From NCBI GenBank assembly GCA_000415505.1, contig KE354310.1, forward strand, positions 1-35,786: DNA of 35,786 nt, given 5' to 3'. Each line of letters begins with the position of its first letter. Position 1 is the first letter of the stretch. The notes below the pieces were generated by a model. That model did not search any database. It had not been told where the DNA came from and saw nothing but the letters and a program-made list of their open reading frames with translations. The DNA comes from Streptomyces afghaniensis 772. GTDB taxonomy: Bacteria > Actinomycetota > Actinomycetes > Streptomycetales > Streptomycetaceae. The translations under genes and the position numbers were made by a program. Of this stretch, positions 14,750 to 32,577 are shown piece after piece.

Positions 14750-14867
14750 GTGCGGCGATGGCTCCCTGGCGTCGTGTGGAATCTCGCAGTGTGGCACGGA
14801 TGTGCGGACGGTATTTGAGACGCCGACGTAGTGGGGATCGTTCCTGACGGCACGCGCGGGCAGCAGA

Positions 14868-14902: not shown

Positions 14903-14920
14903 ATGTTCGGTGGTCTGCCG

Positions 14921-15775
14921 TCAGGCAGCGGTGAACGCCGTACGGTGTTCCAGCGCCCAGTCGGCGAAAGCCGTCGGCGGGCGGCCGGTGACCCGGCCGA
15001 CCGTGTCCGTCACCGGGGCGGTGGTGCCGACCGAGGCCGCGTACGTGCCGAGGACGGAGTCGACGAGGCCGGGCACTCCGAACGCGCCGTACTGATCCTC
15101 CAGTTGGGCCCGAGCGGCATCGCCGACCAGGTCGACGACGGTCACCGGACGACCGATTGCCGCCGCGATCAGCTCGACCTGCCGGCGCTGCGTCATCGAC
15201 TCCGGGCCGGTGAGCTCGTACGTCGCGCCCTCGTGTCCGTCGGACAGCAGGGCCTGGACGGCGACCGCCGCTATGTCCCGCTCGTGGATCGGGGAGACGG
15301 TGCTCTCGGCGTACGGGACGCGGACCTCACCGCCCTCGCGGATCGCGGGGGCCCACTGCAGCACATTGCTCGCGAAGGCGCCCGGCCGCAGCACCGTCCG
15401 GGCGAGACCGCTGTCCTCCACCGCCCGTTCGACCGACAGGTGCATGAGTCCGATCGGACCGGCGGTCTCACCGGGCTCGCTCACCGCGGCGGACGACAGC
15501 AGTACCACGTGCTTGACCCCGCTGGCCCTGGCGAGGTGCAGGAAGCCGGCGACGCCGGACGGGTTGGGGAACAGGAAGAGCTTCTCCACGCCCGCCAGCG
15601 CGTCCCCGAACGAACCGGGGTCGTCCAGGTCCCCGGCGCGCACGTCGACGCCCGCGGGCAGTTCGGCGGTCTTCGGATTCCGGGAGGTGGCCCGCACCGG
15701 GGCACCGGCCGCGAGCAGCAGCTCGACGACGTTGCGGCCGACGTTGCCGGTCGCGCCGGTCACCAGAATGGTCAT
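14921..15775 (-). CDS. NmrA-like NAD(P)-binding reductase
   Basis: A 284-aa atypical short-chain dehydrogenase of the NmrA type. The N-terminal Rossmann motif is TGATGNVGRNVVELLL (residues about 6-21); an arginine that would favour NADPH follows the second strand (RATSRNPKTAEL). The classical YxxxK catalytic pair is not evident. In this setting it may reduce a quinone or enone of the polyketide, or relieve quinone stress as QOR2-type enzymes do (inference). AGGAG is 8 nt before ATG 15775. It lies downstream of the FAD hydroxylase gene and ends at a strong terminator, so the two form an operon. Confidence 0.8.
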   Translation of the reverse strand: MTILVTGATGNVGRNVVELLLAAGAPVRATSRNPKTAELPAGVDVRAGDLDDPGSFGDALAGVEKLFLFPNPSGVAGFLHLARASGVKHVVLLSSAAVSEPGETAGPIGLMHLSVERAVEDSGLARTVLRPGAFASNVLQWAPAIREGGEVRVPYAESTVSPIHERDIAAVAVQALLSDGHEGATYELTGPESMTQRRQVELIAAAIGRPVTVVDLVGDAARAQLEDQYGAFGVPGLVDSVLGTYAASVGTTAPVTDTVGRVTGRPPTAFADWALEHRTAFTAA

Positions 15776-15855
15776 GAGGTGGACTCCTACGTGGGGGAAA
15801 GGGGGCGCTGGGGGAAATTGGGGCGCACATGGCCGGCGCCGGGGCCGGCCGTGGG

Positions 15856-17316
15856 TCAGGTCCGGGCCGCGCCGAACCAGCGGTGGAGTGCTTCCGTGAG
15901 CGGCGTGCCGGCCACCCAGCAGATGTAGCCGTCGGGGCGCACCAGAACGGCCTCGGCGCCGAGGCCGGGGAGCTCCGGTACCTCCACGGCGTCCACCCGG
16001 CCCGTCCAGGGCGCCGCCTCGGCGACCAGTTCCGTCCGCGTGGTCAGCAGGACGCCGTGCCCCTGGTGGAACAGTTCGCTGGCCCAGCGGCCGTCGGGCA
16101 GGGCGAAGTCGGTGAGCCGGGCGCCGACGGGCTCGTCGCCCCCGAGGTCGTAGCGGATGGAGAGGCCGGAGATCGCCCCGCCGAGCAGGCGGTTGGCCTC
16201 CGGCAGTTTGATCAGCTGGGTGAAGATCTCCCTCAGCGCCTCGTGCTCGATGCCCTTCTGGCCGAGGGCGACCTGGGCCCGGGTGTTCGTGAGGACGGCG
16301 GCGCCCACCGGGTGGCGTTCGCCGTGGTAGGTGTCGAGCAGCCCTTCGGGGGCCCAGCCGGCGATCTCGGCGGCCAGTTTCCAGCCCAGGTTCATCGCGT
16401 CCTGCACGCCGGTGTTGAGTCCTTGGCCGCCGAGCGGCAGGTGGACGTGCGCGGCATCGCCGGCGAGGAAGGCCCGTCCGACGCGGTAGTGCTCCGCGAG
16501 GCGTGAGGCGTCGCTGAACCGGGAGGCCCAGCGCACCTCCTTGACCTCGGTGTCCGAGCCGTAGAACTCCTGGATCGCGGCGATGACCTCGTTCTCCGGC
16601 ACCTTCGCGCGCTGGTCGTCGATCACCTGGTCGGCGATGCTGTAGAAGATCCGGTAGACGTTGTCCGACTCCGTGCCGATCGGGAAGATGTTCGCGAACG
16701 ACCCGTCAGGACGCATCCGGGGAGAGCCCTTGGTGTCCCAGGTGGTCGCGATCCCCTCAGCGGTGATGCCCAGCACGACGTCGGAGACGGTGCCGAACCA
16801 CCGCGCGTCCAGCCCGGGGAACTCGACCCCGAGGTGCTTGCGGACGAAGCTGCGGCCACCGTCGCAGCCCGCCAGATAGCGTGCCTCGATCCACTTCCCG
16901 CCGGTCTGGACGCGGACCCGCTCCTCGTCCTGCTCGATGCCGGTGACCTCCGAGTTCCACTGGACCCGTACTCCCAGTGCGGCGAGGTGCTCCTCCAGCA
17001 CGTTCTCGACCTCGGCCTGCGGAATGGCCACCTGGTACGGGTAGCGGGAGTCCCAGCCGTCCAGCGTCAGCGGCACGGGCAGGTGTGCGAAGTGGGTCGT
17101 CTCCAAGCGGGCCCTGGCCTGCTCCTCCGCGCCGTCGAGCATGCCGCGCAAGGCCAGCATCTCCGCGGTGCGGGGGTGGAGGTTCAGGGCCCGGCTCTCG
17201 CCGGTCCGGCCGGGGCCCTTGTCGAGCAGGGCCACGCGTGCGCCGGCGAGGGCCAGCTCGTGGGCCAGCGTCAGACCGGTGGGTCCGGCGCCCACCACGA
17301 TCACGTCAGCGTCCAT
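15856..17316 (-). CDS. FAD-dependent aromatic hydroxylase (UrdE/PgaE type)
   Basis: A 486-aa group A flavoprotein monooxygenase that would use FAD and NAD(P)H to hydroxylate the aromatic polyketide. All three family motifs are visible: GAGPTG (residues 9-14), the DG motif in GCDGGRSFVRKHLG, and the GD motif in FLAGDAAHVHLPLGGQGLN. Members such as PgaE, UrdE and JadH act on angucyclines; this one is single-domain, not fused to a reductase as in PgaM. GAGAGGA precedes ATG 17316 by about 8 nt. A promoter with an embedded two-dyad operator lies at 17343-17381, so it is probably controlled by the cluster TetR. Confidence 0.9.
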   Translation of the reverse strand: MDADVIVVGAGPTGLTLAHELALAGARVALLDKGPGRTGESRALNLHPRTAEMLALRGMLDGAEEQARARLETTHFAHLPVPLTLDGWDSRYPYQVAIPQAEVENVLEEHLAALGVRVQWNSEVTGIEQDEERVRVQTGGKWIEARYLAGCDGGRSFVRKHLGVEFPGLDARWFGTVSDVVLGITAEGIATTWDTKGSPRMRPDGSFANIFPIGTESDNVYRIFYSIADQVIDDQRAKVPENEVIAAIQEFYGSDTEVKEVRWASRFSDASRLAEHYRVGRAFLAGDAAHVHLPLGGQGLNTGVQDAMNLGWKLAAEIAGWAPEGLLDTYHGERHPVGAAVLTNTRAQVALGQKGIEHEALREIFTQLIKLPEANRLLGGAISGLSIRYDLGGDEPVGARLTDFALPDGRWASELFHQGHGVLLTTRTELVAEAAPWTGRVDAVEVPELPGLGAEAVLVRPDGYICWVAGTPLTEALHRWFGAART

Positions 17317-17342
17317 TACGGGTTCCTCTCTGCCTTCCGGTT

Positions 17343-17381
17343 CCGAACAACGTTCTATCAGCGAACGTCGTTCTTTCACAA
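17343..17381 (-). promoter_or_regulatory. Promoter with tandem-palindrome operator, site 1
   Basis: Leftward -35 TTGTGA (17376-17381) and -10 TAGAAC (17352-17357), 18-nt spacer. Overlapping them, 17343-17373 reads CCGAACA-N3-TTCTATC-N3-GAAC-N3-GTTC: two GAAC-N3-GTTC dyads (17345-17355 and 17363-17373), centres 18 bp apart. The same pattern recurs at 21906-21936 in the tetR/MFS promoter. Confidence 0.75.
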
Positions 17382-17462
17382 GTACGGCGTTCTGCGCAGG
17401 CCATCAGGAGCCGATCACGTTTCCCGGGGGCCTGCGAGGACGCTGGGGCGCTACCGCGACTA

Positions 17463-17492
17463 CCGCGAACCGCGCTGTTCCGCGGCTCGCGG
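17463..17492 (-). terminator. Terminator after the acyltransferase gene
   Basis: A 12-bp stem with one A-C mismatch (17463-17474 with 17481-17492), starting 8 nt past the leftward stop at 17501. It separates the P450-LLM-acyltransferase operon from the FAD hydroxylase promoter. Confidence 0.65.
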
Positions 17493-17500
17493 CAGGAGGG

Positions 17501-18709
17501 TCACCAACTGTGGGTCGGGGTGAGGCCCCACGCGTCGAGCTCCGCCTCGACCAGCCCGGCTCCGACCGAGACGCCGGCGGACTGGAAGCCGATCGACACC
17601 GTCCCGCCGGCCCTGAGGACGAAACAGTTCATCCGGCCGGGCGGCCCCCCGGCGCCCGAGACCGTGCGGAAGAGGACACCCAGGGCGGGACCGAAGACGT
17701 CCCTGGCCTCCGGCAGCATCTCGCCGGCGTTGGACAGCGCGGCGTCGGTCTGCGGATAGCCGGTGAGGTGCCGGCCGACCACCTCGGCGTACACCGCCTT
17801 GCTCAGCCGGCGGATGTGGGCCAGGTCGGTGTAACGCCCGCGCAGGCCGGCCAGCCGCAGGGTGGCGATCCCGACCATGTTGGAGGACTCCAGGTCGTCC
17901 GGCCGCCGGAAGCTCACGGGCAGCCCGACCGTGAACGGCCCGCCCGACTCGGTGGTGCCCCGCGCGGCGCGCAGGATGTTCGCGGTCATGGCGAGCATCA
18001 GCCCCGTCACGCTGCCCCCGCCGCTCTCCGCCACCCGCTCGGCGTCGGCGGCCGACACGGTGAAGGCGAGCCGGGAGCGGACGGGCGCCGCGCCGTCTGC
18101 CTGCCGTGAACGGCCGAGCAGCATCCGGGTTGCGGTGGCGGGCACCTCGGCGACCTTGCCGCGCAGCCGGGACAGCGCCAGCCGGGAGTACGTCCACATG
18201 CCTTCCGTCACCAGATCGGTGAGGTCCTCGACCAGCGACGGCTGCCCGGAGCGCCACTGCCGAGCGGTCTCCCGGGCGGCCAGTGTGGCCGCGCCGATGA
18301 GACCCTGGCCGTCGGTCAGCGCGTGCGAACCCACCAGGGACACCACGGACGTGCCGTCGCCGATGTGCGCCGCGCTCAGCACCCAGCCGCGGCCCGCATG
18401 GGCGTCGAGTTCGACCCGGCAGGCGGCGTCGGCCCAGTCCATCACCTCTTCCGGCGCGATCGTCCGAGGGGAGACACGCAGGGCGGAGCAGTCGGTGTGC
18501 CGCTCCCAGACCGGGCGGGCCAGCGGCAGCCGGGCGGTCCGCATCCGCCGGTTCAGCGGGCCCTGGGCCAGATTGGCGTGGAACTTCCGCAACGCTTCGG
18601 GAGCCGGCCGGCCCTGCACCCGCCAGAGCAGCTGCACCGGGGGGTCGATCTTCAGCTGTTGCATCAGTACATCGCCTCCGGTGAAGCGCTGCGATCCGGC
18701 CATGTTCAT
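17501..18709 (-). CDS. WS/DGAT-like O-acyltransferase
   Basis: A 402-aa member of the CoA-dependent acyltransferase superfamily (condensation domain, wax ester synthase/DGAT, PapA). The catalytic motif is SHALTDG (H129, D133, G134); the first histidine of the usual HHxxxDG is serine, but the essential second one is kept. The C-terminal half holds a VSGAGGPPGRMN segment resembling the NVPGP region of WS/DGAT proteins. A likely role is esterification of a polyketide hydroxyl with an acyl-CoA; donor and acceptor are unknown. ATG 18709 overlaps the LLM stop by 4 nt (ATGA), so translation is coupled. It is the last gene of the P450 operon. Confidence 0.75.
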   Translation of the reverse strand: MNMAGSQRFTGGDVLMQQLKIDPPVQLLWRVQGRPAPEALRKFHANLAQGPLNRRMRTARLPLARPVWERHTDCSALRVSPRTIAPEEVMDWADAACRVELDAHAGRGWVLSAAHIGDGTSVVSLVGSHALTDGQGLIGAATLAARETARQWRSGQPSLVEDLTDLVTEGMWTYSRLALSRLRGKVAEVPATATRMLLGRSRQADGAAPVRSRLAFTVSAADAERVAESGGGSVTGLMLAMTANILRAARGTTESGGPFTVGLPVSFRRPDDLESSNMVGIATLRLAGLRGRYTDLAHIRRLSKAVYAEVVGRHLTGYPQTDAALSNAGEMLPEARDVFGPALGVLFRTVSGAGGPPGRMNCFVLRAGGTVSIGFQSAGVSVGAGLVEAELDAWGLTPTHSW

Positions 18710-19713
18710 GTCGTCGTCCCCGTCTCCGGCGCGAGCCCGACCAGCGGGGCCAGCGTGCGCCCGGTCAGTGCGATGGCGTCCGGATCGTGCGCGTTGACGA
18801 GCATGTTGGCCATGAGCCCGTCGATGCCGTGGCACAGCACCCGCTCCTGGAGCTGCTCGGTGACCTCGGCCGGGGTGCCGACGAAGAACCGGTCGCTCGC
18901 CGCGGCCCGCTCGGAGTCCGTCAGTTCCGCCACGTTCACGCCCGACCTGGCCAGTGCCTCCTCCAGCAGCTTGCGGGCCCGGTCGCCGTCCTCGTCGATG
19001 ATCAGGGGCGTGGCGAAGCTGGTCTCCAGCGTCGCCGGGTCCCGGCCGGCCTCGGCGCACCGCGTCCGCAGTGCCGCCATCTTCCGCGGCAGCTCGGAAG
19101 TGGTGCAGATGATGTTGAGGTGGTCGGCGTGCCGGGCGGCGAAGGCGAACGTCTTCTTCTCGCCCCCGCCTCCGATCAGCAGCGGCAGGTCCTCCCGGAG
19201 CCGGGGCTCGTTGATGGCACCCTCGGCGCGGAACCAGCGCCCCTCGACTCGCGGCCGCGCCCCGCGCAGCATCGGGACGACGACGCCGAGCGCCTCCTCG
19301 AACCGGCCGAAACGCTCGGCGACGGTACCGAACTCGTAGCCGTACTCGCGGTGTTCCTGCTCATGCCAGCCGGCGCCGACGCCGAGCACGGCGCGCCCCT
19401 GGCTGATCACGTCGAGCGTGGTGACCATCTTGGCCAGCAGGGCGGGATTGCGGTAGCCGATGCCGGTCACCATGGTCGACAGCTGCACACGGCCGGTGGC
19501 CGCCGCCAGCGCCCCGAGCAGGGTGTACGCCTCCAGCATCGGGCCGTCGGGCGGCCCGATCAGCGGCGGCTGGTAGAAGTGGTCCATCGTCGTGACCAGG
19601 TCGAACCCGGCGTCCTCCGCGGCGCGCACCTGGTCGACCAGTGCGGGGAAGAGACCGGTGACCGTCTCCGTGTGATGGAAGTACGGGATGTGATAGCCGA
19701 GACGTATGCTCAC
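18706..19713 (-). CDS. LLM-class (F420-type) oxidoreductase
   Basis: A 335-aa luciferase-like TIM-barrel oxidoreductase. Family segments: LGYHIPYFHHTETVTG at the N-terminus, AEDAGFDLVTTMDHFYQPP (about 30-48), LGALAAATGRVQLSTMVTGIGYRNPALLAKM and RAVLGVGAGWHEQEHREYGYEF. Actinobacterial proteins of this subtype mostly use F420; FMN cannot be excluded. It could reduce a double bond or carry out a flavin-type oxidation of the polyketide. GTG 19713 is the start: its ribosome site (TAGGAGA) is formed from the P450 stop codon itself, 11 nt upstream. The 3' end overlaps the acyltransferase start (ATGA). Confidence 0.88.
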   Translation of the reverse strand: MSIRLGYHIPYFHHTETVTGLFPALVDQVRAAEDAGFDLVTTMDHFYQPPLIGPPDGPMLEAYTLLGALAAATGRVQLSTMVTGIGYRNPALLAKMVTTLDVISQGRAVLGVGAGWHEQEHREYGYEFGTVAERFGRFEEALGVVVPMLRGARPRVEGRWFRAEGAINEPRLREDLPLLIGGGGEKKTFAFAARHADHLNIICTTSELPRKMAALRTRCAEAGRDPATLETSFATPLIIDEDGDRARKLLEEALARSGVNVAELTDSERAAASDRFFVGTPAEVTEQLQERVLCHGIDGLMANMLVNAHDPDAIALTGRTLAPLVGLAPETGTTT

Positions 19714-19724
19714 GTGCTGGTCTC

Positions 19725-20951
19725 CTACCAGGTGACGGGAAGTTCGACGGGGCCGAAGAACTGGCCGAAGTACTTGTAGGGCAGGGCGCCGGGTTCCACG
19801 GCGAGCCGCAGGTCCGGGACGCGGTGGAAGAGGCGGTCGAGGACCACCTGGAGCTCGGTGCGCACGATGTTCTGGCCGAGGCACTGGTGCGCCCCGTAGC
19901 CGAACGCGACATGCCGGGTGCCCGAGGCTCGCCCGATGTCGAAGCGGTCGGGGTCGGGGAAGGCGTCGGCGTCGCGGTTCGCCGGCAGGGTGGGAATGAT
20001 GACCCCGTCGCCCGCGCGGATGCGTACGCCGCCGATCTCCACGTCCTCCAGGGCCAGCCTGAGCGGCCCGGTGTCGGTGATCGACAGGAAGCGCAGGAGC
20101 TCCTCGACCGCGGCCGGCGTGCGGGCCGGATCGGTGGTGAGCTCCTTCAGCTGCTCCGGGTCGGCCAGCAGGGTGAGCACCGACAGCGAGATCATCGCGG
20201 CGCTGGAGGCGTGTCCGGCGATCTGCAGGAGCTGCACGAGGCTGGCAAGTTCGAAACGGTCGGCGGCACCTCCGTGCTCCCGGCGGGACCGCTCGATCTG
20301 ACGGCTGAGGAAGTCGTCGGCCGGATTCTCCTCCTTGGCCGCGATGACCCGGTCGAGGTGGGCGTGCAGGGCCTCGGCGGCGGCCCGCTGCTCGTCCTCG
20401 GTCCGGGCCTCGCGCAGCATCTTCCCCGTGTTGCGCTCGATGGTGTCGAGGTCGTCCGCCGGAACACCCAGGAACGCCTCGAGCACCAGTGTGGGTACGG
20501 GGCCCGCGAGGTGCGCGACGAGGTCGACCGGCCGGTCCGGCTGCTCCAGCATCCGGTCGATCGCCGTGTCGACGATGCGCTCGATCCGCGGCTTCATGGC
20601 GTTGATCTTGCGCACGGAGAACTCCCCGAGGACCGCGCGGCGGGCCCGGGAGTGCTCGGCTCCGTCCATGTTCACCAGGAACGGCGAGAAATAGGTCAGC
20701 GCCTTGAGCCCGCCCGGAGAAAGTTCGGGAAATCCGGGCCGAAGTTTCTCGGAGCTGAAACGGGCGTCGGAAAGCACCGCTCGGGCGTCTTCGTTCTTGG
20801 TGATGAGCCAGGCGCGGCGCCCGTCGGACATGCGGACCTGGTGCACCCGGCCGCCCGCCTCGTCCAGTTTCCGATACGTCTCCGGAACGCTGAACGGGCA
20901 GGTGCGGAGTATGGGAAATTCCGGAGCGGCGTCCGCTGCGATCTCATTCAT
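19725..20951 (-). CDS. Cytochrome P450 with atypical I-helix
   Basis: A 408-aa bacterial P450. The heme-binding loop FGYGAHQCLGQN places the cysteine ligand at C357; the K-helix ExxR is EELLR. The I-helix oxygen-activation motif is unusual: residues 245-250 read AGHASS where most relatives have AGHETT, so the acid is replaced by A248 and the threonine by S249. Loss of the acid is seen in some P450s with substrate-assisted or radical-coupling chemistry. ATG 20951 is preceded by AAGGGA. It is the first gene of a P450-LLM-acyltransferase operon, with direct CTGAC repeats upstream at 21014-21033. Redox partners are not encoded nearby. Confidence 0.92.
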   Translation of the reverse strand: MNEIAADAAPEFPILRTCPFSVPETYRKLDEAGGRVHQVRMSDGRRAWLITKNEDARAVLSDARFSSEKLRPGFPELSPGGLKALTYFSPFLVNMDGAEHSRARRAVLGEFSVRKINAMKPRIERIVDTAIDRMLEQPDRPVDLVAHLAGPVPTLVLEAFLGVPADDLDTIERNTGKMLREARTEDEQRAAAEALHAHLDRVIAAKEENPADDFLSRQIERSRREHGGAADRFELASLVQLLQIAGHASSAAMISLSVLTLLADPEQLKELTTDPARTPAAVEELLRFLSITDTGPLRLALEDVEIGGVRIRAGDGVIIPTLPANRDADAFPDPDRFDIGRASGTRHVAFGYGAHQCLGQNIVRTELQVVLDRLFHRVPDLRLAVEPGALPYKYFGQFFGPVELPVTW

Positions 20952-21013
20952 GACAATTCCCTTGGGTATGCCGAGGGGGGATGACATGAACGGTAGCGCG
21001 GCGAATTTTCCCT

Positions 21014-21033
21014 CAGGGTCAGACCAGAGTCAG
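21014..21033 (-). promoter_or_regulatory. Direct repeats upstream of the P450 operon
   Basis: Reading leftward, CTGACTCTG (21033-21025) and CTGACCCTG (21022-21014) are direct repeats with an 11-bp period, 63 nt before the P450 start. TACCGT (20990-20995) could be the -10. The 11-bp period is typical of OmpR/SARP-type DNA binding. Confidence 0.5.
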
Positions 21034-21088
21034 CTCTTTGTTAATTCTGAATCTGGGAAACTGCAGGGAATCGGTGACGGAAAAGCCG

Positions 21089-21118
21089 GCCCCGGATTGC
21101 GGCTGCGGAGGCCGGGGC
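21089..21118 (-). terminator. Possible terminator after the cluster tetR gene
   Basis: A 7-bp GC stem (21089-21095 with 21112-21118) with a 16-nt loop, 8 nt past the leftward stop at 21126. Confidence 0.4.
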
Positions 21119-21125
21119 GGGGCGG

Positions 21126-21830
21126 TCAGTCCGTGACGAACGTCGCCAGCCCGGAGATCAGCATGTCCAGGCCCAGTTCGAACCTGCCGTCGCTGTCGGT
21201 GTCCAGCATGACGTCCACGTTGCCGACGATGGACGGGAACCGGTCCGCGGGCAGGGACGCGAAGTAGTCGCGGACGGGATCGATCCAGTCGGCCAGGTCC
21301 TTGTTCGCCAGGCGCCAGCCCTCGTAGACGTCGGCCGTCGTGTACAGGGTGAGCCGGTGCAGGGCCCAGGCCGCGATCTTCGGGGGGACGCCCACGTTCA
21401 GCAGTACCGACAGCAGCCGCTCGGTGATCGCCACGCCGATTGCGGTGGGCGGGAAGGCCGCGAAGTTGTAGAGGGCGATGTCGCCGTGGGCGGACAGTAC
21501 GCGCTGCATCTTCGTGTAGTGCGCCTTGAGGTCCGCGTCCCACTGCCCGGTGACCTCCGGGACGCCCACCTCCTTCATCACCCGCTCCAGCACCAGGAGC
21601 AGCAGCTCCTCGCGGTTGCGCACGTGCGCGTACAGGCTGGACGCGACCACGCCCAGGTCGCCGGCGATCCGGCGCATGGTGACCGCGCCACTGCCCTCCG
21701 TGTCGACGACCGCGAGCGCGGCGTCGACGATCCGCTCCGCCGTGAGCGGAGCGCGCTGGGGAACCTCGGTCTTCCGGCGCACCTCCCATGGCGGGAGGGG
21801 CACCTCGGCGGAGTTCGACTTCTGACGCAT
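21126..21830 (-). CDS. TetR-family repressor of the polyketide cluster
   Basis: A 234-aa TetR-type repressor. The helix-turn-helix is at residues about 47-70 (VTMRRIAGDLGVVASSLYAHVRNREELL), preceded by a basic arm; the C-terminal domain resembles the tetracycline-repressor-like ligand domain (RVLSAHGDIALYNFAAFPPTAIGV). It is divergent from an EmrB/QacA-type exporter, the classic arrangement for a product-sensing repressor. The intergenic promoters overlap a 31-bp dyad element (21906-21936) that is repeated at the FAD hydroxylase promoter, so it probably represses itself, the exporter and the hydroxylase operon. ATG 21830 is used; a GTG immediately upstream is possible. Confidence 0.88.
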   Translation of the reverse strand: MRQKSNSAEVPLPPWEVRRKTEVPQRAPLTAERIVDAALAVVDTEGSGAVTMRRIAGDLGVVASSLYAHVRNREELLLLVLERVMKEVGVPEVTGQWDADLKAHYTKMQRVLSAHGDIALYNFAAFPPTAIGVAITERLLSVLLNVGVPPKIAAWALHRLTLYTTADVYEGWRLANKDLADWIDPVRDYFASLPADRFPSIVGNVDVMLDTDSDGRFELGLDMLISGLATFVTD

Positions 21831-21899
21831 CACGGAGACCTTACCGGTGAGGAGGCGCCCGAGGGCGCGGGGTCGGATCGGGGTTGGTTCAGATTTGGG

Positions 21900-21944
21900 T
21901 TGACGCCGAACATGATTCTATCGTAGAACAGTGTTCGTTTACAG
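21900..21944. promoter_or_regulatory. Divergent tetR/MFS promoters with operator, site 2
   Basis: The operator at 21906-21936 reads CCGAACA-N3-TTCTATC-N3-GAAC-N3-GTTC, matching site 1 at all 22 fixed positions. Leftward tetR promoter: -35 CTGTAA (21939-21944), 18 nt, -10 TAGAAT (21915-21920), the same geometry as site 1. Rightward MFS promoter: -35 TTGACG (21900-21905), 18 nt, -10 TAGAAC (21924-21929). Both would be blocked by a repressor bound here. Confidence 0.75.
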
Positions 21945-22079
21945 GTACGTGTTCGGCCAAAGGAAACGGTGTTTCCGCAACGTACGTCGTTCATCCCCGC
22001 AGTCGCCTGCGACGTCGTCACGCATCACTGGCTGCCCTGCCGACGGCACTGTCAGCTGTCCCGACCCCAGGAGGTCAGC

Positions 22080-24716: not shown

Positions 24717-24748
24717 AGAGAGAGGAAAAAGAAAGAAAAGAATTCACC

Positions 24749-24789
24749 GGCCGCCGCCGCAGCTCTCCCAGCTGCGGCGGCGGCCTTTT
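24749..24789 (+). terminator. Strong intrinsic terminator after the regulator gene
   Basis: Perfect 16-bp stem (24749-24764 with 24770-24785), loop CTCCC, followed by TTTT (24786-24789). This insulates the regulator gene from the PKS operon. Confidence 0.92.
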
Positions 24790-24808
24790 CGTGCCCTGAG
24801 CTGCCCGT

Positions 24809-24835
24809 CTGACCTTTCCCTGACGTAAAGCTGAG
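24809..24835 (+). promoter_or_regulatory. Three direct repeats upstream of the PKS operon
   Basis: CTGAC at 24809, CTGAC at 24820 and CTGAG at 24831 form direct repeats with an exact 11-bp period. They lie just upstream of a possible promoter (-35 CTGACT 24852-24857, 17 nt, -10 TGTAGA 24875-24880). The period and the CTGAC core match the repeats before the P450 operon. Confidence 0.6.
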
Positions 24836-24973
24836 TTGGGCGTGCAGAGACCTGACTGTTCCCTCCATTGGAAATGTAGAAGTTATGAAGTGGATTGAGT
24901 TGAGAGTGTGCCGAGCTCTGGTGAATAGTTCATTGCGTAATCCGATGCGTCGGAACAGAACGGGAGGCAGGAC

Positions 24974-25645
24974 ATGTTCACTGTGGTGAGCGTGGGCAGA
25001 CTGGACGGGGATTGCAGCAAGGAGATAGCAGAGATCTTCGCCGACTACGATGCGGTCACTGCGCCCCGGATATCCGGGCTGAAGCGTCGGCAGCTGTACG
25101 CCTACTACGACGTCCTCGTCCATATTCAGGACTTCACCGGAGAGAACGCCGGCGCGGCGGCCGACGAAGCGGCGAAGGAATTCCGGGCCGCCGAACTCCG
25201 CGAGCGGCTGGCACCGCTGGTCACGTCCTACACGCCGACCGTGGCCGACGACCGTGCCGTCGCCTTCTACCAATGGGAGGGCGAGCCGCCGGTCGACAAG
25301 GAAACCGGTCTCCACAGCACGGTGATCGTGAACCGGGTCGCCGACGAGGTCGTCCCCGAGGTGGCCCGGCTCTTCGGCGAACTGGACGCCACCGACTTTC
25401 CGTACCGGATGGGCACCCGGCGCCGGCAGCTGTTCTCGTACCAGGGCGTCTACTTCCACATCCAGGACTTCCCGAGCGAGAACGGCACCGCCGTGATCGA
25501 CCAGGCCTGGAAGGAGGCCGACCCGCGCTTCGTGAAGATCTGCGCGGACCTGGACCCGCTGGTGAAGAAGTACGCCCCGGAGCGCTGGCGCTCCACGGCC
25601 GACCAGATCGCCACCCGCTTCTACCACTGGGAGGCGGCGGAGTGA
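24974..25645 (+). CDS. Tandem-domain polyketide cyclase (TcmI/JadI family)
   Basis: A 223-aa protein made of two fused copies of the Cyclase_polyket (TcmI/JadI/UrdF) fold, normally a ~108-aa single-domain enzyme that closes late rings of aromatic polyketides. Domain 2 (about 112-223) carries the angucycline-cyclase signature: [26 protein letters not shown] (161-166), [17 protein letters not shown]. Domain 1 (1-104) keeps the fold landmarks ([25 protein letters not shown]) but is diverged. The domains may form an intramolecular dimer, or domain 1 may have a separate role. GGGAGG lies 6 nt before ATG 24974. The stop overlaps the KS-alpha start (GTGA). First gene of the PKS operon. Confidence 0.9.
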
Positions 25646-26913
25646 GCGCGCGACGAGTCGTCATCACCGGCGTCGAGGTCCTCGCCCCCGGCGGGGTCGG
25701 CGCCCGGAAGTTCTGGGAGCTGCTCACCGAGGGACGCACCGCGACCCGGGGCATCACCTTCTTCGACCCCTCACCGTTCCGCTCCCGCGTGGCCGCCGAG
25801 GTCGACTTCGACCCGTACGCGCACGGCCTGACCCCGCAGGAGGTCCGGCGGATGGACCGGGCCGCCCAGTTCGCGGTCGTCGCCGCGCGCGGCGCCGTCG
25901 CCGACAGCGGCCTGGCCCTCGACGGGCTCGACCCCTACCGGATCGGCGTCACCGTCGGCACCGCCGTCGGCTCCACCATGAGCCTCGACGAGGACTACCG
26001 GATCGTCAGCGACGACGGCCGCCTCGACCTGGTCGACCACACCTACGCCGACCCGCACTTCTACAACTACTTCGTGCCGAGTTCCTTCGCGGCCGAGGTC
26101 GCCCGCGCCGTCGGCGCGCAGGGTCCGAGCAGCGTCGTGTCGGCGGGCTGCACCTCCGGGCTCGACTCGGTCGGTTATGCCGCCGAGCTGATCCGCGAGG
26201 GCACGGCCGATGTCGTGGTCGCCGGCGCCACCGATGCGCCGATCTCGCCGATCACCCTCGCCTGCTTCGACGCCATCAAGGCCACCACGCCACGCAACGA
26301 CGAGCCGGAGCACGCCTCCCGGCCCTTCGACGGCACCCGCAACGGATTCGTGCTCGGCGAGGGTGCCGCGGTGTTCGTCCTCGAGGAACTCGACAGCGCG
26401 CAGCGCCGGGGCGCCCGTGTCTACGCGGAGATCGCGGGATACGCCACCCGAAGCAACGCGTACCACATGACGGGCCTGCGCGCCGACGGCGGGGAGATGG
26501 CCGAGGCGATCACCGTCGCCCTCGACGAGGCCCGGATGAACCCCACGGACATCGACTACATCAACGCGCACGGCTCGGGGACCAAGCAGAACGACCGCCA
26601 CGAGACCGCCGCGTTCAAGCGCAGCCTGGGCGACCACGCGTACCGCACACCGGTGAGCTCCATCAAGTCCATGGTGGGGCACTCGCTGGGCGCGATCGGA
26701 TCCATCGAGATCGCCGCGTCGATCCTCGCGATCCGGAACAACGTCGTACCGCCCACGGCGAACCTGCACACCCCCGACCCCGAGTGCGACCTGGACTACG
26801 TGCCGCTCACCGCCCGCGATCAGCTCGTCGACGCCGTCCTCACGGTCGGCAGCGGCTTCGGCGGGTTCCAGAGCGCCATGGTGCTCGCCCAGCCCGAAAG
26901 GAGTGCGGCGTGA
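25642..26913 (+). CDS. Ketosynthase alpha (KS-alpha) of type II minimal PKS
   Basis: The 423-aa condensing subunit of the minimal PKS, which extends the poly-beta-ketone chain with malonyl-ACP. The catalytic triad is complete: C170 in [12 protein letters not shown]310 in [12 protein letters not shown] and H347 in [11 protein letters not shown]. The N-terminal [15 protein letters not shown] and the C-terminal [13 protein letters not shown] are typical. The GTG start at 25642 overlaps the cyclase stop, and the stop overlaps the KS-beta start, both as GTGA, enforcing stoichiometric coupling of the heterodimer. Confidence 0.98.
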
Positions 26914-28103
26914 CGGCCTCAGTGGTGGTGACCGGCCTGGGTGTGGCGGCGCCCAACGGACTCGGTGGCCAGGACTTCTGGAACGCCACCCTCGCCGGCA
27001 AGAGCGGCATCGGCCCGCTCACCCACTTCGACGCCTCCGGGTACCCGGCGCGGCTCGCCGGTGAGATCGGCGACTTCACGGCCGAGGGCCAGCTGCCCAG
27101 CCGGCTGATGCCCCAGACCGACCGGGTCACCCGGCTCTCCCTGGTCGCGGCGGACTGGGCACTCGCCGACGCCGGCGTACGGCCGGCCGAACTGCCCGAG
27201 TTCAGCATGGGCGTGAGCACCGCGAGTTCGGCGGGCGGGTTCGCGTTCAGCCAGCACGAGCTGAAGAACCTGTGGAGCAAGGGCAGCCAGTACGTCAGCG
27301 CGTACCAGTCGTTCGCCTGGTTCTACGCGGTCAACACCGGCCAGATCTCCATCCGCAACGGCATGAAGGGCCCCAGCGGCGTGGTCGTCACCGACCAGGC
27401 CGGCGGGCTGGACGCGGTGGCCCAGGCCCGGCGCCAGATCCGCAAGGGCACCTCCCTCGTCGTCGCCGGCGCCGTGGACGCGCTGCTGTGTTCCTGGGGG
27501 TGGGTCGGACTGCACACCAGCGGCCGCCTCAGCACCGCCGAGGAGCCGACCCACGCCTACCTGCCCTTCGACGACCGGGCCGCCGGCCATGTGGCCGGTG
27601 AGGGCGGTGCCCTGCTCATCATGGAGTCGGGTGACTCCGCGAAGGCCCGCGGCGCCAGGGTGTACGGCGAGATCGCCGGGTACGCCGCCACCTTCGACGG
27701 ACGCGAACCCGGCCTGCGCAAGGCCGTGGAGCTCGCCCTCGCGGACGCGGCCGTGACCGCCGCCGACGTGGACGTGGTGTTCGCCGACGCGGCGGCCGAG
27801 CCGGAGCTCGACCGCGTCGAGGCCGAGGCGATCGCCGCCGTCTTCGGGCCGCACGGCGTACCGGTCACCGCCCCGAAGACGATGACGGGACGGCTGTACG
27901 CCGGGGGCGCGGCGCTCGATCTCGCCACGGCCTTCCTGGCTCTGGGCGAGGACACGATCCCGCCGACGGTCCACACCGAGCCGGCCGAACGCCACGGCCT
28001 CGACCTGGTCGTCTCCCAGCCCCGCGCCGCCCGCCTGCGCACCGCGCTCGTCCTCGCCCGGGGCCACGGCGGCTTCAACTCGGCCATGGTCGTGCGCCGC
28101 TGA
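26910..28103 (+). CDS. Ketosynthase beta / chain length factor
   Basis: The 397-aa KS-like partner that shapes the chain-length cavity and primes by malonyl-ACP decarboxylation. The active-site cysteine is replaced by glutamine (Q163 in [12 protein letters not shown]), the hallmark of CLFs. The fold is otherwise complete, ending [19 protein letters not shown]. Chain length cannot be read with confidence, but the cluster layout points to a decaketide as in angucyclines (inference). GTG start coupled to the KS-alpha stop; 80 nt of non-coding DNA separates it from the ACP gene. Confidence 0.97.
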
Positions 28104-28183
28104 GCGCGCCGCCGCCAAAGCCCGACCGCACCCCCCATCCAGCCGCATCAGGAACACGCAGAAAACAAGAAGGAAGGCTCCCC

Positions 28184-28447
28184 ATGTCCCGCACCTTCAC
28201 GCTCGACGACCTCAAGCGGATCCTCCTCGAAGGCTCCGGCGCCCCCGACGGCACCGGCCTCGAAGGGGACATCCTCGACGCCGACTTCGCCGACATCGGC
28301 TACGACTCGCTCGCCCTGCTGGAGACCGCCAGCCGCGTCGAGCGCGAGTACGGCATCGAGCTGGACGAGACGGTCGTGGGGGAGGCGAACACGCCCCGCG
28401 CCCTCCTCGACGCCATCTCCTCCCACCTGCCCGCTCAGGCCGCCTGA
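28184..28447 (+). CDS. Acyl carrier protein
   Basis: An 87-aa carrier protein that tethers the growing polyketide on a phosphopantetheine arm. The attachment serine is S42 in the canonical context FADIGYDSLALLETA. Helix III ends in NTPRALLDAISSHL. AGGAAGG lies 6 nt before ATG 28184. It is probably modified by the PPTase at the end of the same operon. Confidence 0.97.
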   Translation: MSRTFTLDDLKRILLEGSGAPDGTGLEGDILDADFADIGYDSLALLETASRVEREYGIELDETVVGEANTPRALLDAISSHLPAQAA

Positions 28448-28499
28448 CCACGACACCGCAGCTCGAGACCACAGTGAAACTCGCAGGGAAAGAGGGGAA

Positions 28500-29285
28500 A
28501 TGACAGAGCAGAAGAGCCGGGTCGTCCTGGTGACCGGTGCCACCAGCGGCATCGGTCTGGCCGTCACCCGGCTGCTGGCCGGGCAGGGGCACCGGGTGTT
28601 CATAGGGTCCCGCACCGAGGACAAGGTCGTCACGACCGTCAAGCAGCTCCAGGAGGAGCAGCTCGACGTGGACGGCGTCGTCCTGGACGTGCGGTCCGTG
28701 GACTCGATCCGCGGATTCGTCCAGGCGGCCGTCGAGCGGTTCGGCACGGTCGACGCGCTCGTCAACAACGCGGGGATCCCGGGCGGTGGAGTCACGGCCG
28801 ACATCTCCGACGAACTGTGGGACGACATCGTCGACACCAACCTCAACAGCGTGTTCCGCCTGACCCGCGAGGTGCTGACCACGGGCGGGCTGCGGCACAA
28901 GGACTGGGGGCGCGTCATCAACATCGCCTCCACGGCCGGCAAGCAGGGCGTCGTCCTGGGTGCCCCGTACTCCGCGTCCAAGCACGGCGTCGTCGGTTTC
29001 ACCAAGGCGCTGGGCAACGAACTGGCCCCCACCGGCATCACGGTCAACGCCGTCTGCCCGGGCTACGTCGAGACCCCGATGGCCGAGCACGTACGGCGGA
29101 ACTACTCCCGCCTGTCCGGTGCCTCGGAGGCGGCGATCCTGGAGAAGTTCCAGGCCAAGATCCCGCTGGGCCGCTACTCCACCGCCGCGGAAGTGGCGGG
29201 CCTGGTCGGCTACCTGATGACCGACACGGCGGCGTCCATCACCGCCCAGGCCCTGAACGTCTGCGGCGGCCTCGGCAACTTCTGA
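28500..29285 (+). CDS. C9-type polyketide ketoreductase
   Basis: A 261-aa SDR ketoreductase of the actIII type that reduces the C9 carbonyl of the nascent chain with NADPH. The cofactor motif is TGATSGIG (residues 12-19) and the catalytic tetrad is N114, S144, Y157, K161, the numbering found in actinorhodin KR. The PGYVETPMAEHVR lid and the C-terminal CGGLGNF are typical. It starts 52 nt after the ACP with a purine-rich ribosome site (AGAGGGG). Its presence together with a didomain ARO/CYC predicts a reduced, C7-C12 first ring. Confidence 0.96.
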   Translation: MTEQKSRVVLVTGATSGIGLAVTRLLAGQGHRVFIGSRTEDKVVTTVKQLQEEQLDVDGVVLDVRSVDSIRGFVQAAVERFGTVDALVNNAGIPGGGVTADISDELWDDIVDTNLNSVFRLTREVLTTGGLRHKDWGRVINIASTAGKQGVVLGAPYSASKHGVVGFTKALGNELAPTGITVNAVCPGYVETPMAEHVRRNYSRLSGASEAAILEKFQAKIPLGRYSTAAEVAGLVGYLMTDTAASITAQALNVCGGLGNF

Positions 29286-29313
29286 CCACCTACCGAGCGC
29301 GAAGGAGTCCACC

Positions 29314-30264
29314 ATGCCGTCGGAGCTGCACGAGTCCAGTCACGAGATCAAGATCTCGGCCCCGGCCGAAACCGTCTACCGCATGCTCGCGCATGCCGAG
29401 GACTGGCCCCGTCTCTTCCCCCCGAACATCTACGTCGACCAGGTGGAGCGCGGCGAACGCGAGGAGCGCATCCGCATCTGGGCGACGGCCGGCGACACCG
29501 TCAAGAACTGGACGTCGCGCCGGACCCTCGACCCGGAGAACCTCCGCATCCGGTTCCGGCAGGAGGTCAGTACGCCCCCGGTGGCGGCGATGGGTGGCAC
29601 CTGGCACATCGAGGCGCTCCCCTCCGGCGACGCACTGGTGCGCCTCGACCACGACTACCAGGCGGTCGACGACGAGAGCCTCGCCTGGCTCGACGGCGTC
29701 GTGGACCGCAACTCCCGCTCCGAGCTCGAGTCGCTGAAGGTGACGGCCGAGTCCGACGGCACTGCCGACGCGCTGACCTGCTCCTTCGAGGACACGGTCA
29801 CGATCAGGGGCGCCGCCCGGGACGTGTACGACTTCATCGACCGGGCGGACCTGTGGACCGATCGCCTGCCGCACGTCCTCGCGGTGCGGCTGGAGGAGCC
29901 GGCACCGGGGCTGCAGACGCTCGAGATGGACACCTTGTCCAAGGACGGCACCTCGCACACCACGAAGTCGTACCGCGTGTGCCTGCCGCACCACCGGATC
30001 GCCTACAAGCAGGTCACGCTGCCCGCCCTGATCACGCTGCACACCGGCCGCTGGACCATCACGCCGACCGAGGACGGCGTGACGGCCTCCTCGCAGCACA
30101 CGTTCACGGTCGACACCGACAACATCGGGAAAGTCCTGGGCGCGGACGCGACCGTGCAGGACGCGATCGACTACGTCCGCACGGCGCTCAGCACCAACAG
30201 CATGGCGACCCTGGGCCTTGCCAAAGCGTTCGCCGAGGAGCGCGCCGGGGGCGACCGTCCATGA
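29314..30264 (+). CDS. Didomain aromatase/cyclase (ARO/CYC)
   Basis: A 316-aa bifunctional enzyme of two SRPBCC (START-like) domains: about residues 1-150 (HEIKISAPAETVYRMLAHAEDWPRL) and about 158-305 (EDTVTIRGAARDVYDFIDRADLWTDRLP). The family cyclises and aromatises the first ring of KR-reduced polyketides (ActVII, JadD, UrdL). GAAGGAG is 6 nt before ATG 29314. The stop overlaps the next gene (ATGA), starting a chain of four such overlaps that ties it to the following four small enzymes. Confidence 0.95.
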   Translation: MPSELHESSHEIKISAPAETVYRMLAHAEDWPRLFPPNIYVDQVERGEREERIRIWATAGDTVKNWTSRRTLDPENLRIRFRQEVSTPPVAAMGGTWHIEALPSGDALVRLDHDYQAVDDESLAWLDGVVDRNSRSELESLKVTAESDGTADALTCSFEDTVTIRGAARDVYDFIDRADLWTDRLPHVLAVRLEEPAPGLQTLEMDTLSKDGTSHTTKSYRVCLPHHRIAYKQVTLPALITLHTGRWTITPTEDGVTASSQHTFTVDTDNIGKVLGADATVQDAIDYVRTALSTNSMATLGLAKAFAEERAGGDRP

Positions 30265-31169
30265 CGGTGGCACAGCCGGCCGCCACGGCGGGCGTGCGCG
30301 GCATCACCCTCGACGCGGACGGCATCACCCTGTCCGGGTTGCTCGCCCTCCCGTCACAGGCTCCGTGCAGGGCGATGGTCGTCGCCCTGCACGGAGCCGG
30401 GATGAGCTCCTCGTACTTCCACGGACCGTCCCACCCCGACACGTCGTTCCTCGACCTCGCCACGAGCCTCGGGTTCGCGGCGGTGGCCGTGGACCGCCCG
30501 GGCTACGGCCTGTCGGCCCGGCAGCTGCCCCAGGGGCAGGGGATCGCGGAACAGGCGGCGACGCTCGGCGCGGCCCTGCGCTTCCTGACGGCGCGGTTCG
30601 ACACGGGCAGCGGCATCTTCCTCCTCGCCCACTCCTTCGGCGGCAAGCCGGCGCTGCGGATCGCTGCGGACGGCATGCTCCCGGAACTGCTCGGCCTCGA
30701 CATCTCCGGCTGCGGCGGCGAGTACGCGGTGCCGTTGAGCGCCAGGGACACGCACGGGCGACGGAGCTGGCGGCTCAACTGGGGGCCGCTGCGGCTGTAT
30801 CCGCCGGGGACGTTCCGGGCCAGCGGCAGCGTCGTCGCCTCGATTCCGCCGCGGGAGCTCGCGGACGCAGTCCGCTGGACGCAGGAGTTCGCCGGGTTCG
30901 CCGAGCGGATCCGGGTGCCGGTCCGGTTCACCTTCGCCGAGCACGAGGCCTGGTGGCAGCACGACCAGCAGGCGGTCGCCCGGCTCCGGTCCCGGCTGAG
31001 CTCGGCGCCCCGCGTGGTGACGGACCATCAGCCCGACGCCGGCCACAACATCAGCCTCGGCTGGACGGCCCGCGCCTATCACCTCAGAGCCCTCGGCTTC
31101 GTGGAGGAGTGCCTGCAGTGGCGGGACGACCCGATCAGACCCACGCGAGGAAAGCAGGACCGGACATGA
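30261..31169 (+). CDS. Alpha/beta hydrolase in the PKS operon
   Basis: A 302-aa alpha/beta hydrolase. An oxyanion motif HGAG (residues about 44-47), the nucleophile elbow AHSFGG (S125) and the late histidine DAGHNIS (H262) make a credible catalytic set; the acid is probably in the RFTFAEHEAWW strand. No signal peptide is seen. Possible roles are release or editing of the acyl-ACP, or hydrolysis or decarboxylation of a late intermediate. It is not a classical type II TE. Translational coupling (ATGA at both ends) indicates a function inside the pathway rather than a passenger. Confidence 0.85.
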   Translation: MTVAQPAATAGVRGITLDADGITLSGLLALPSQAPCRAMVVALHGAGMSSSYFHGPSHPDTSFLDLATSLGFAAVAVDRPGYGLSARQLPQGQGIAEQAATLGAALRFLTARFDTGSGIFLLAHSFGGKPALRIAADGMLPELLGLDISGCGGEYAVPLSARDTHGRRSWRLNWGPLRLYPPGTFRASGSVVASIPPRELADAVRWTQEFAGFAERIRVPVRFTFAEHEAWWQHDQQAVARLRSRLSSAPRVVTDHQPDAGHNISLGWTARAYHLRALGFVEECLQWRDDPIRPTRGKQDRT

Positions 31170-31567
31170 CGCAGGACATCGTCGGAGTGTGGCATCTGGA
31201 CGCCTTCCACGACGTGGACGAGGCCGGGCGGCCCGTGGGTGAGGGCCCGCTGGGGCCGTCCCCGTCGGGCATGCTGATCTACACGCCCGACGGCCACGTC
31301 TCGGTGAGCATGATGCCCACCGCGCCGGCTTCGGCACCGGGACCTTCGTACATGGGGTACGCGGGCGAGTGGCGGGCGCAGGACGGGAAGGTCGTGCACC
31401 GCATCCGGATCTCGTCGCGCCCCGACTGGATCGGCATCGAGCAGTCGCGGGACGCCGAGCTCGACGGGGACGTCCTCACCGTCCGCGCCACCCGGGAGGT
31501 GGACGCCCGTCCGCAGCGGCGCGTCCTCGTGTGGCGCAGGGCCGAGCGGTCGGGGGATGCCCGATGA
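31166..31567 (+). CDS. Lipocalin-like domain protein
   Basis: A 133-aa protein matching the lipocalin-like (Lipocalin_5) family: it opens DIVGVWHLDAFHDVDEAGRPVGEGPLG, followed by SGMLIYTPDGHVSVSMMP and YAGEWRAQDGKVVHRI. These small beta-barrel proteins bind hydrophobic ligands; relatives occur in aromatic polyketide clusters with poorly defined roles (carrier, cyclisation helper or non-enzymatic chaperone). No secretion signal, so it would act in the cytosol. ATGA overlaps join it to the hydrolase before and the 63-aa gene after. Confidence 0.8.
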   Translation: MTQDIVGVWHLDAFHDVDEAGRPVGEGPLGPSPSGMLIYTPDGHVSVSMMPTAPASAPGPSYMGYAGEWRAQDGKVVHRIRISSRPDWIGIEQSRDAELDGDVLTVRATREVDARPQRRVLVWRRAERSGDAR

Positions 31568-31755
31568 GCGCCCTTGTGGACACGATCGCCGGGATGGCCG
31601 AGGACGCCGACCACCCGCTGCTGATGGCCCTGAGCATCTTCGCTCCCGGAGCGGTGCACCACACGGCCCCCGGCCCGCAGGAGGCGGCGGACGAGGGCCG
31701 GAGTGCCGCCACGGTGTCCCGGCACCTCGGACGGCTGGGCCTGGAGGGCACATGA
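31564..31755 (+). CDS. 63-aa protein of unknown function in the PKS operon
   Basis: A 63-residue protein (MSALVDTIAGMAEDAD... ending SRHLGRLGLEGT) that I do not recognise. It has a short hydrophobic stretch (PLLMALSIFAPGAV) too weak for a confident membrane helix, a histidine pair (VHHTAPG) and a helical, basic C-terminus. It is real by context: ATGA overlaps at both ends place it exactly between the lipocalin-like gene and the PPTase gene in the same operon, and its codon use matches theirs. Confidence 0.75.
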   Translation: MSALVDTIAGMAEDADHPLLMALSIFAPGAVHHTAPGPQEAADEGRSAATVSRHLGRLGLEGT

Positions 31756-32486
31756 CCCCGGCCGCCGCCCCGCCCCGCGTGCTGCTCCTCGCACACGATC
31801 TGCACTCCCCGGGCACCGAGGAACTCGCGCACACCGTGTCCGAGGTGCTGGCGCCGGCCGAACGCGAGCACGTGCTGCGAAAGCGGCTGGCCGCGGACCG
31901 GACCCGCACGCTGATCGGGCGGTGGCTGGCCCGCCGGGCGGCCGCACGGATCGTCGGCGCGCCGTGGACGACCCTGTGCACCGGGCAGCGCCTCGGCGGG
32001 CAGCCGTACGTGGTGGGCAGACCGCAGCTGTCGCTGAGCATCGCGCACAGCGGCCGGTACGCGCTGGCGGCCGTGGCCCTGGGGGCGCGGGTCGGAGTCG
32101 ACACGGAGCAGGTGGCGCGCGTGACCCGGCTGCCCGACGACGCCTTCCTCGGCCCTGGCGAACGGGCGGCCCTGCACGCCGTGCCGCAGGACGAGGAACG
32201 CCGGGCGGCCCTGTGGGTGCTGAAGGAGGCGGCGGCCAAACTGACCGGCCAGGGCCTGCGCGCGGGCCTGCGGAGCATCGGCTTCGAGTGCCCGGGCACC
32301 CGCTTCCCGCTCGTCGCGCGCACCCCCTATGCGGCGGCGCAGTTCAGAGCCTTCCGGCTCCCTGGCGGATACGTCGCCGCGGTGGGCGTGTCCGCGGGTG
32401 AACCGCCGAGGGGACCGGTGTTCGTGACACCGACTGGCCCAGTGCCGGCTGACCGTGGGACTGCTCGTCCTCCTTCCGTAAAGTAG
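31752..32486 (+). CDS. Sfp-type 4'-phosphopantetheinyl transferase
   Basis: A 244-aa transferase that would convert the cluster ACP from apo to holo form using CoA. Family motifs: LSIAHSGRYALAAVA (P2-like), VGVDTEQV with the Mg-binding acids, and WVLKEAAAKLTGQGLR (WxxKEAxxK). The first ~20 residues (RVLLLAHDLHSPGTEELAH) and the Arg-rich KRLAADRTRTLIGRWLARR are usual for the group. It is the last gene of the PKS operon, coupled by ATGA. A cluster-borne PPTase is also known in jadomycin biosynthesis (JadM). Confidence 0.93.
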   Translation: MTPAAAPPRVLLLAHDLHSPGTEELAHTVSEVLAPAEREHVLRKRLAADRTRTLIGRWLARRAAARIVGAPWTTLCTGQRLGGQPYVVGRPQLSLSIAHSGRYALAAVALGARVGVDTEQVARVTRLPDDAFLGPGERAALHAVPQDEERRAALWVLKEAAAKLTGQGLRAGLRSIGFECPGTRFPLVARTPYAAAQFRAFRLPGGYVAAVGVSAGEPPRGPVFVTPTGPVPADRGTARPPSVK

Positions 32487-32577
32487 TGAAGGCCCTGGGT
32501 CACGAGTGGATGTGGCGCTGACCAGCACCGTGCTGACTTAGGTAGCCGTTATCGCAGGTCGGAGGGGTGGATTTCAT

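Follow-up and report, generated by a model that had tools for sequence, protein, structure and literature searches.

A type II polyketide cluster at the 5' end of the SRAP gene of Streptomyces afghaniensis 772, probably the cargo of a decayed phage-type integrative element

We analysed a stretch of 35,786 bp from Streptomyces afghaniensis 772 (the window), in which a type II polyketide synthase (PKS) cluster separates two blocks of core genes and is bordered by sequences that resemble the ends of an integrative element. The window is one entire contig (C605; KE354310.1) of a draft assembly of 9.85 Mb in 1,724 contigs, with a contamination estimate of 2.39%. To the left of the cluster, on the minus strand, lie rsgA (11573-12625), aroA (5-enolpyruvylshikimate-3-phosphate synthase, PF00275; 12601..13917) and an M50B peptidase-like gene (PF13398; 14015..14797). 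To its right, on the plus strand, lie the gene of the SOS response-associated peptidase (SRAP, PF02586; 32578..33393), a DNA-repair gene and the putative target of the element, and a hydrolase gene, sigR and rsrA (33395..35302). The names sigR and rsrA were given in a first-pass annotation of the sequence and are compatible with the Pfam matches (sigma-70 factor and zf-HC2). The same annotation placed a polyketide cluster with genes of its own between the aroA and sigR blocks, and Pfam upholds this for the flanks and for most of the cluster genes.

The interval between M50 and SRAP is occupied by 17 open genes, none of them interrupted. On the minus strand these encode an NmrA-like NAD(P)-binding reductase (14921..15775), a FAD aromatic hydroxylase (15856..17316), a protein of 387 amino acids (17501..18664), an LLM-class F420-type oxidoreductase (18706..19713; NCBIfam TIGR03560 above its cut-off), a cytochrome P450 (19725..20987) and a TetR-family regulator (21126..21833). 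On the plus strand follow an MFS exporter (21969..23543), an OmpR-type regulator with receiver and Trans_reg_C domains (23910..24716), a two-domain TcmI-type polyketide cyclase of 223 amino acids (24974..25645; Cyclase_polyket in two stretches), the ketosynthase KS-alpha (25642..26913), KS-beta or chain-length factor (26910..28103), the acyl carrier protein (ACP; 28184..28447), a polyketide ketoreductase (KR; 28500..29285), a didomain aromatase/cyclase (ARO; 29314..30264), an alpha/beta hydrolase (30261..31169), a lipocalin-like protein (Lipocalin_5; 31166..31567) and a phosphopantetheinyl transferase (PPTase; 31752..32486). The assignments are from Pfam, save for the 387-residue protein, the aromatase and the alpha/beta hydrolase; the last was named from its annotated homologue on a Streptomyces camelliae plasmid and has, by tblastn, a homologue of about 50% identity on plasmid pSA3239.

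We examined the M50-SRAP interval across the genus in two samples. In sample 1, M50 and SRAP were searched in 149 relatives, with the best match taken per genome, and both genes lay on one contig in 143; the six left out had the genes on different contigs (G121, G135, G113), no M50 (G120), no listed SRAP match (G088) or neither gene (G050). The gap was at most 251 bp in 130 of the 143 and exceeded 400 bp in 13, in 9 of which it was at least 3.5 kb. Sample 2 comprised 76 further unselected genomes, 73 of them usable, with a gap of at most 251 bp in 66 and of at least 3.5 kb in 3. Pooled, the interval is short in 196 of 216 unselected genomes and long in 12. Two of the latter, G037 and G156, were set aside as rearrangements because about 64 kb separates their M50 and SRAP genes, which share one strand; this leaves 10 insertions of at least 3.5 kb; the arrangement in G037 and G156 (C33) itself suggests an inversion with one end at the M50-SRAP site. 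In G124, G009 and G099, the sampled relatives with the SRAP genes closest to that of the window (96-98% identical), the site is empty and synteny is otherwise kept from rsgA to rsrA, with aroA products 98-99% identical in G124 and G009. The earlier proposal that the locus is a site of cluster insertion is strongly supported by these counts and by the recombination scars described below. The counts rule out the block as a usual resident of the interval, and the cluster cyclase occurs at an identity of at least 85% in only 4 of 392 genomes, that of the window included.

Both ends of the insert carry such scars. In empty-site relatives such as G124, the SRAP gene begins with ATGTGCGGACGGTATGCAGCG. 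This start is found twice in the window, at 14800, where it runs into TTGAGACGCCGACGTAGTGGGGATCGTTCCTGACGGCA, and at 32578, where it opens the present SRAP gene, so that the two form a direct repeat (ATGTGCGGNCGGTAT) with a 15-bp core, identical at 14 of 15 positions between the ends. The left copy, ATGTGCGGACGGTAT (14800..14814, plus strand), is the candidate attL core and repeats, away from the gene, the 15 bp with which SRAP opens; the right copy, ATGTGCGGGCGGTAT (32578..32592, plus strand), is the candidate attR core. The core is single copy in the relatives G124, G009 and G049. Next to the left core stands an arm, TTGAGACGCCGACG...GATCGTTCCTGACGGCA (14815..14848, end approximate, plus strand), that is also present in G063, G101, G007 and G190, and in the elements of G256 and G316, which have intact integrases. 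The right arm, CGCAGGTCGGAGGGGTGG (32553..32570, plus strand), is identical in G063 and recognisable, as variants, in most other insertions. A search with a 19-bp left-arm pattern and 3 mismatches matched 374 of 384 genomes and is too loose to discriminate.

Beside the right arm are two colinear fragments of the 3' end of a tyrosine integrase gene, separated by an internal deletion (32451..32543, plus strand). Positions 32451-32509 are 81% identical to the integrase of G256, and positions 32507-32539 are 91% identical to that of G036; blastn gives E 6e-8 against the G256 and G316 genes. The DNA alignment score of the fragments was reached by none of 500 dinucleotide shuffles with each of the G036, G256, G316 and G244 integrases. 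Within the window these fragments are all that stands of an integrase beside the att site, while G036, G256 and G316 have intact versions.

With a window drawn from so fragmented a draft, and a measurable contamination estimate, the junctions could in principle be an artefact of assembly or contamination. Coherent scars recur, however, in genomes of few contigs (one in G007, two in G036 and three in G101), and the G+C content is 70.3% in the block as against 70.4% in both flanks; we therefore give this explanation next to no weight. A second alternative holds that a long interval is ancestral and that most Streptomyces lost it by recombination between the 15-bp repeats, with no insertion here, and a deletion of this kind would indeed leave a single copy of the core, just like an empty attB. 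It would require very many parallel losses, since most genomes are empty, the inserts are unlike in content and the cluster is rare, its three other carriers not having it at the SRAP site; we consider it highly improbable.

The integrase to which the fragments belong is tied to this site in other genomes. In G036, an intact tyrosine integrase of 388 amino acids ends 35 bp before SRAP, and the intact integrases of this clade (G036, G256, G316) all sit 35 bp upstream of SRAP. In G256 and G316 the intact integrase is on one contig and, on another contig, the same left arm as in the window stands beside M50. For homologues of the G036 integrase in the genus, we examined 30 loci out of 32 places listed. 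All four loci with at least 72% identity (G036, G256, G316 and the shortened G244) adjoin a SRAP gene, as against none of the 26 others. The G244 locus (C1, 6549-18925) has an integrase of this clade (252 of 388 amino acids matched) and a similar left arm before a SRAP paralogue (54%); at its main SRAP site, G244 has no insert (gap 75 bp). By blastn, the integrase or pieces of it lie beside SRAP in 7 of the 10 other insertions (G026, G021, G063, G007, G036, G048 and G190), where only matches beside SRAP were counted because background matches reach E of about 5e-4. No PF07508 serine recombinase was found inside the insertions of the ten genomes searched. Integrases in phage and plasmid records matched at less than 60% identity only. 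Literature searches for SRAP as attB and for cluster-carrying elements (supplements excluded) gave no report of SRAP as an attachment site among the matches listed.

The cargo at the site is varied. G316 has an intact integrase, both att ends and a two-module nonribosomal peptide synthetase (NRPS), an AMP ligase, a PapA-like protein, a thioesterase, regulators and transposases; its element is split over two contigs (attL and attR), which cover its two end regions. A 53-kb insertion in G007 (region C1:8444000-8500000), with the left arm and an integrase remnant, holds another, distinct type II PKS (KS-alpha 73%), accompanied by a deoxysugar gene (NDP-hexose 2,3-dehydratase) and by carboxylase, SARP-type and acyltransferase-domain genes. 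The insertion of G026 holds ATP-grasp/L-amino-acid ligase, HPPD-like, PhyH and aminotransferase genes. Read from translations, the insertion of G063 holds a large regulator and that of G101 looks like a copper-oxidase set. The element of G036 looks phage-derived because it has integrase, repressor-like and major-head-protein genes. Pfam and NCBIfam searches gave no TraB/FtsK, type IV secretion system (T4SS) or Rep gene in the insert of the window, which thus does not qualify as a conjugative element (ICE or AICE), and no match to these in the scanned part of the G036, G256, G316 and G190 proteins. It is conceivable, and we put it forward tentatively, that a clade of phage-type integrases directed at the start of SRAP repeatedly brings natural-product clusters into the core chromosome (the present cluster, the PKS of G007, the NRPS of G316, the ATP-grasp set of G026), that a G316-type element may still move, and that integration would exchange the promoter and ribosome-site region upstream of SRAP.

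Related cases are described in the accessible part of a study of decayed actinomycete integrative elements (PMC9513070), in which one site hosts varied elements, protein-coding genes are the targets in 14 of 51 cases (rlmN, for example), and another site has the same pattern of decay, with a partial integrase, cargo and two repeats. The likeness lies in a shared insertion site with varied, decayed elements and in a protein-coding target. Compared with that part of the study, the target here is the 5' end of SRAP, the cargo is a whole polyketide cluster, the G036 relative looks phage-derived, and no TraB or Rep is among the proteins that we scanned.

Other copies of the cluster are known on different flanks. 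The block recurs, with 88-93% identity at the DNA level, in S. spinoverrucosus, S. griseorubiginosus, the linear plasmid of S. camelliae and, over the covered part, CoH27 (21 kb compared, spanning NmrA to ACP), in no case at the SRAP site. A scan of named genomes with the 387-residue protein gave three loci. All 17 genes are colinear, at 82-98% amino acid identity, in S. spinoverrucosus NBRC 14228 (G153), S. camelliae (G243) and S. griseorubiginosus DSM 40469 (G222). The blastn endpoints (S. spinoverrucosus, S. camelliae and S. griseorubiginosus, respectively) are 14859, 14865 and 14866 on the left and 32431, 32431 and 32432 on the right, and so agree within 8 bp and 1 bp. The first-pass annotation had drawn the cluster from 14921 to 32486; the cluster stands, with the block common to other genomes measuring 17,573 bp (14859..32431) and the sequence between the two repeat copies running from 14815 to 32577. 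Only S. camelliae and CoH27 have their flanks in common (98%); otherwise the flanks of the copies differ, aside from weak repeats here and there, among them a response-regulator gene (68%).

The right end of the block is where the window departs from these copies. About the last 17 codons of the PPTase of the window lie beyond the shared block, at its meeting point with the integrase fragment. The other copies run on for about 190 bp with a reading frame of 46 amino acids (MND...HIWRSVN), which is the annotated PPTase end in S. camelliae, is kept in S. spinoverrucosus and S. griseorubiginosus and has gone from the window, where the block meets integrase sequence; on the S. camelliae plasmid stretch (L057) it lies at about 28,920-29,060. 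The S. camelliae copy is on a linear plasmid of 273,284 bp (NZ_CP115301.1; G243:C2), near RepL2 and ParA/ParB genes. Beyond its PPTase, 357 bp of the NmrA gene recur in inverted orientation at 98.9% identity (L057 11199-11555 and 29191-29546), so that the plasmid cluster is flanked by inverted repeats. Among the four copies, the N-terminal TcmI-like domain of the cyclase (24974-25645 in the window) is far more variable than the nearly invariant C-terminal domain. At their SRAP sites, S. camelliae and S. griseorubiginosus have no insert, with gaps of 5 bp and 2 bp, respectively. In S. spinoverrucosus the site holds an 841-bp relic with short integrase pieces.

We consider it likely, with a probability of about 0.72, that the cluster, itself complete, came as cargo of a phage-type integrative element and was fixed by the decay of that element. 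The observations behind this reading are the empty sites in relatives, the 15-bp repeat, the arms held in common with elements that have intact integrases, the integrase fragments at attR and the presence of the same block elsewhere with other flanks. A tyrosine integrase would have recombined the attP of the element with the opening 15 bp of SRAP, which encode its MCGRY start. Integration would leave the displaced SRAP start as attL and, as attR, a regenerated SRAP gene with an upstream arm supplied by the element. Decay would then have removed the larger part of the integrase along with the other genes of the element, with a right-hand deletion reaching the 3' end of the PPTase gene, and the cluster would have become fixed.

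That the cluster travelled inside the element, rather than joining it later, is what we infer. The alternative is that the SRAP site received an element that decayed first, and that the cluster entered the relic afterwards through homologous or illegitimate recombination, one possible donor being a linear plasmid of the kind found in S. camelliae. Such a course would fit the plasmid location of the one further copy whose type of replicon is known, the scraps of the element that directly adjoin the cluster on both sides, and S. spinoverrucosus, with its relic at the SRAP site and its cluster elsewhere. Yet in other insertions, too, foreign genes are enclosed by an att-like left end and the integrase 3' end beside SRAP, and in G316 NRPS genes accompany an integrase that is intact. 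The simpler rule is therefore cargo carried within the element, and later entry appears unlikely.

Several points weigh against transport by the element. The arms are not uniform, as a different left arm is common to G036 and G048, a third occurs in G026, and in G021 the core stops after 11 bp. Three of the ten other insertions show no integrase sequence, with arm-like sequence in G101 and G207 and not even that in G089. The integrase remnant is weak as a protein (tblastn E 0.04), with one of its three frames beating 300 shuffles with each integrase and the other two not. The window has no intact integrase, so that movement of this copy is not shown. The other four copies of the cluster are on other flanks, with no att arms in the stretches examined and no integrase in the three that were searched; hence no intact element is known to contain the cluster.

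The product is probably angucycline-like. The gene order cyclase-KS-alpha-KS-beta-ACP-KR-ARO, comprising a minimal PKS, a KR, a didomain aromatase and a TcmI-like cyclase, is that of angucycline clusters, and the homologues on pSA3239, taken in this order, are 47, 74, 63, 58, 77 and 65% identical by tblastn. In PDB searches the aromatase scores 385 bits with BexL and 212 bits with StfQ, and the C-terminal domain of the cyclase resembles TcmI (E 4.6e-7). We take the pSA3239 cluster (NC_024970.2) to be that of auricin (aur1), which is of the angucycline type. It has the same core order, also has an alpha/beta hydrolase and a PPTase, and is plasmid-borne like the S. camelliae copy; it differs in a single-domain cyclase of 110 amino acids, two further FAD-oxygenase types and deoxysugar genes, none of which are in the window. 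Against an angucycline stands the oxygenase complement, since the canonical pair, which we take to be the PgaE/JadH-type and PgaM/UrdM-type FAD oxygenases, was not found among the cluster genes. The sole FAD oxygenase falls in a third clade, with an identity of 39-41% to each of the two types represented on pSA3239 and in G086, as against 64-74% between members of one type. Its scores against PDB 4k2x and rifampin monooxygenases exceed those against CabE/PgaE. Together with the two-domain cyclase, this oxygenase complement would suit a type II polyketide other than an angucycline, a possibility that we regard as on the unlikely side given the core order, the angucycline-like best relatives and the BexL-like aromatase. 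The label 'angucycline-type' of the earlier annotation thus agrees with the gene order and aromatase and is at odds with the missing oxygenase pair, which makes the class likely, not shown. The compound would be made by the cyclase, KS-alpha/beta, ACP, KR and aromatase, with the P450, LLM, FAD and NmrA enzymes for tailoring and the MFS protein as exporter. The accessible part of PMC11264864 uses TcmN-didomain and TcmI-like cyclases as an angucycline mark.

On the earlier suggestion that the product may be new, we found no matching cluster in the literature among the matches listed. As given in the available part of PMC8487521 and compared by gene table only, the rubiginone (rub) cluster is likewise sugar-free and has P450s, a TetR, a transporter, an alpha/beta hydrolase and an annotated acyltransferase; it comprises 38 open reading frames, with a cyclase of 108 amino acids, three methyltransferases and a GH3-like gene, and on this gene content we rejected identity with it. 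The sister clusters of G314 and G122 share OmpR, MFS, P450, cyclase, KS-alpha (85-88%), KS-beta, ACP, KR, ARO, hydrolase and lipocalin, with no match to the NmrA, FAD hydroxylase, LLM, 387-residue, TetR and PPTase proteins within the 36-40 kb compared. The Pfam and NCBIfam matches of the cluster proteins of the window include nothing for glycosyl transfer, methyl transfer or sugar formation.

As for the rest of the initial gene list, most named genes were confirmed, while the alpha/beta hydrolase, the lipocalin, the two-domain structure of the cyclase and the att and integrase scars had been omitted. The label 'acyltransferase' for 17501-18664 found no backing: the 387-residue protein has an SHALTDG motif only, no sequence match to an acyltransferase or condensation family in Pfam, NCBIfam or PDB and no convincing match to any other (the best being Trypsin, E 0.017). 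As to the proposed terminators of the cluster's own, terminator-like sites are about as common as in shuffled sequence (5 against a mean of 4.7), though one, at 24749-24785, has a 16-pair stem. Outside the interval, two identical tRNA-Met (CAT) genes (5808-5882 and 8047-8121) lie on either side of a TPR-protein gene (6115-7938).

Trees are the usual evidence for the movement of whole clusters among the chromosomes and plasmids of Streptomyces. In the present case the junction can be read at single-base resolution, along with an empty site, scars, relatives with intact integrases and a plasmid copy of the block. The G316 and G256 integrases are predicted to recombine at the SRAP 5' end, which is a candidate attB for engineering. 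Genome miners should inspect the M50-SRAP interval because the inserts there include several cluster types, and the present cluster, with its two-domain cyclase and its lack of the canonical oxygenase pair, is a reasonable target in the search for a new aromatic polyketide.

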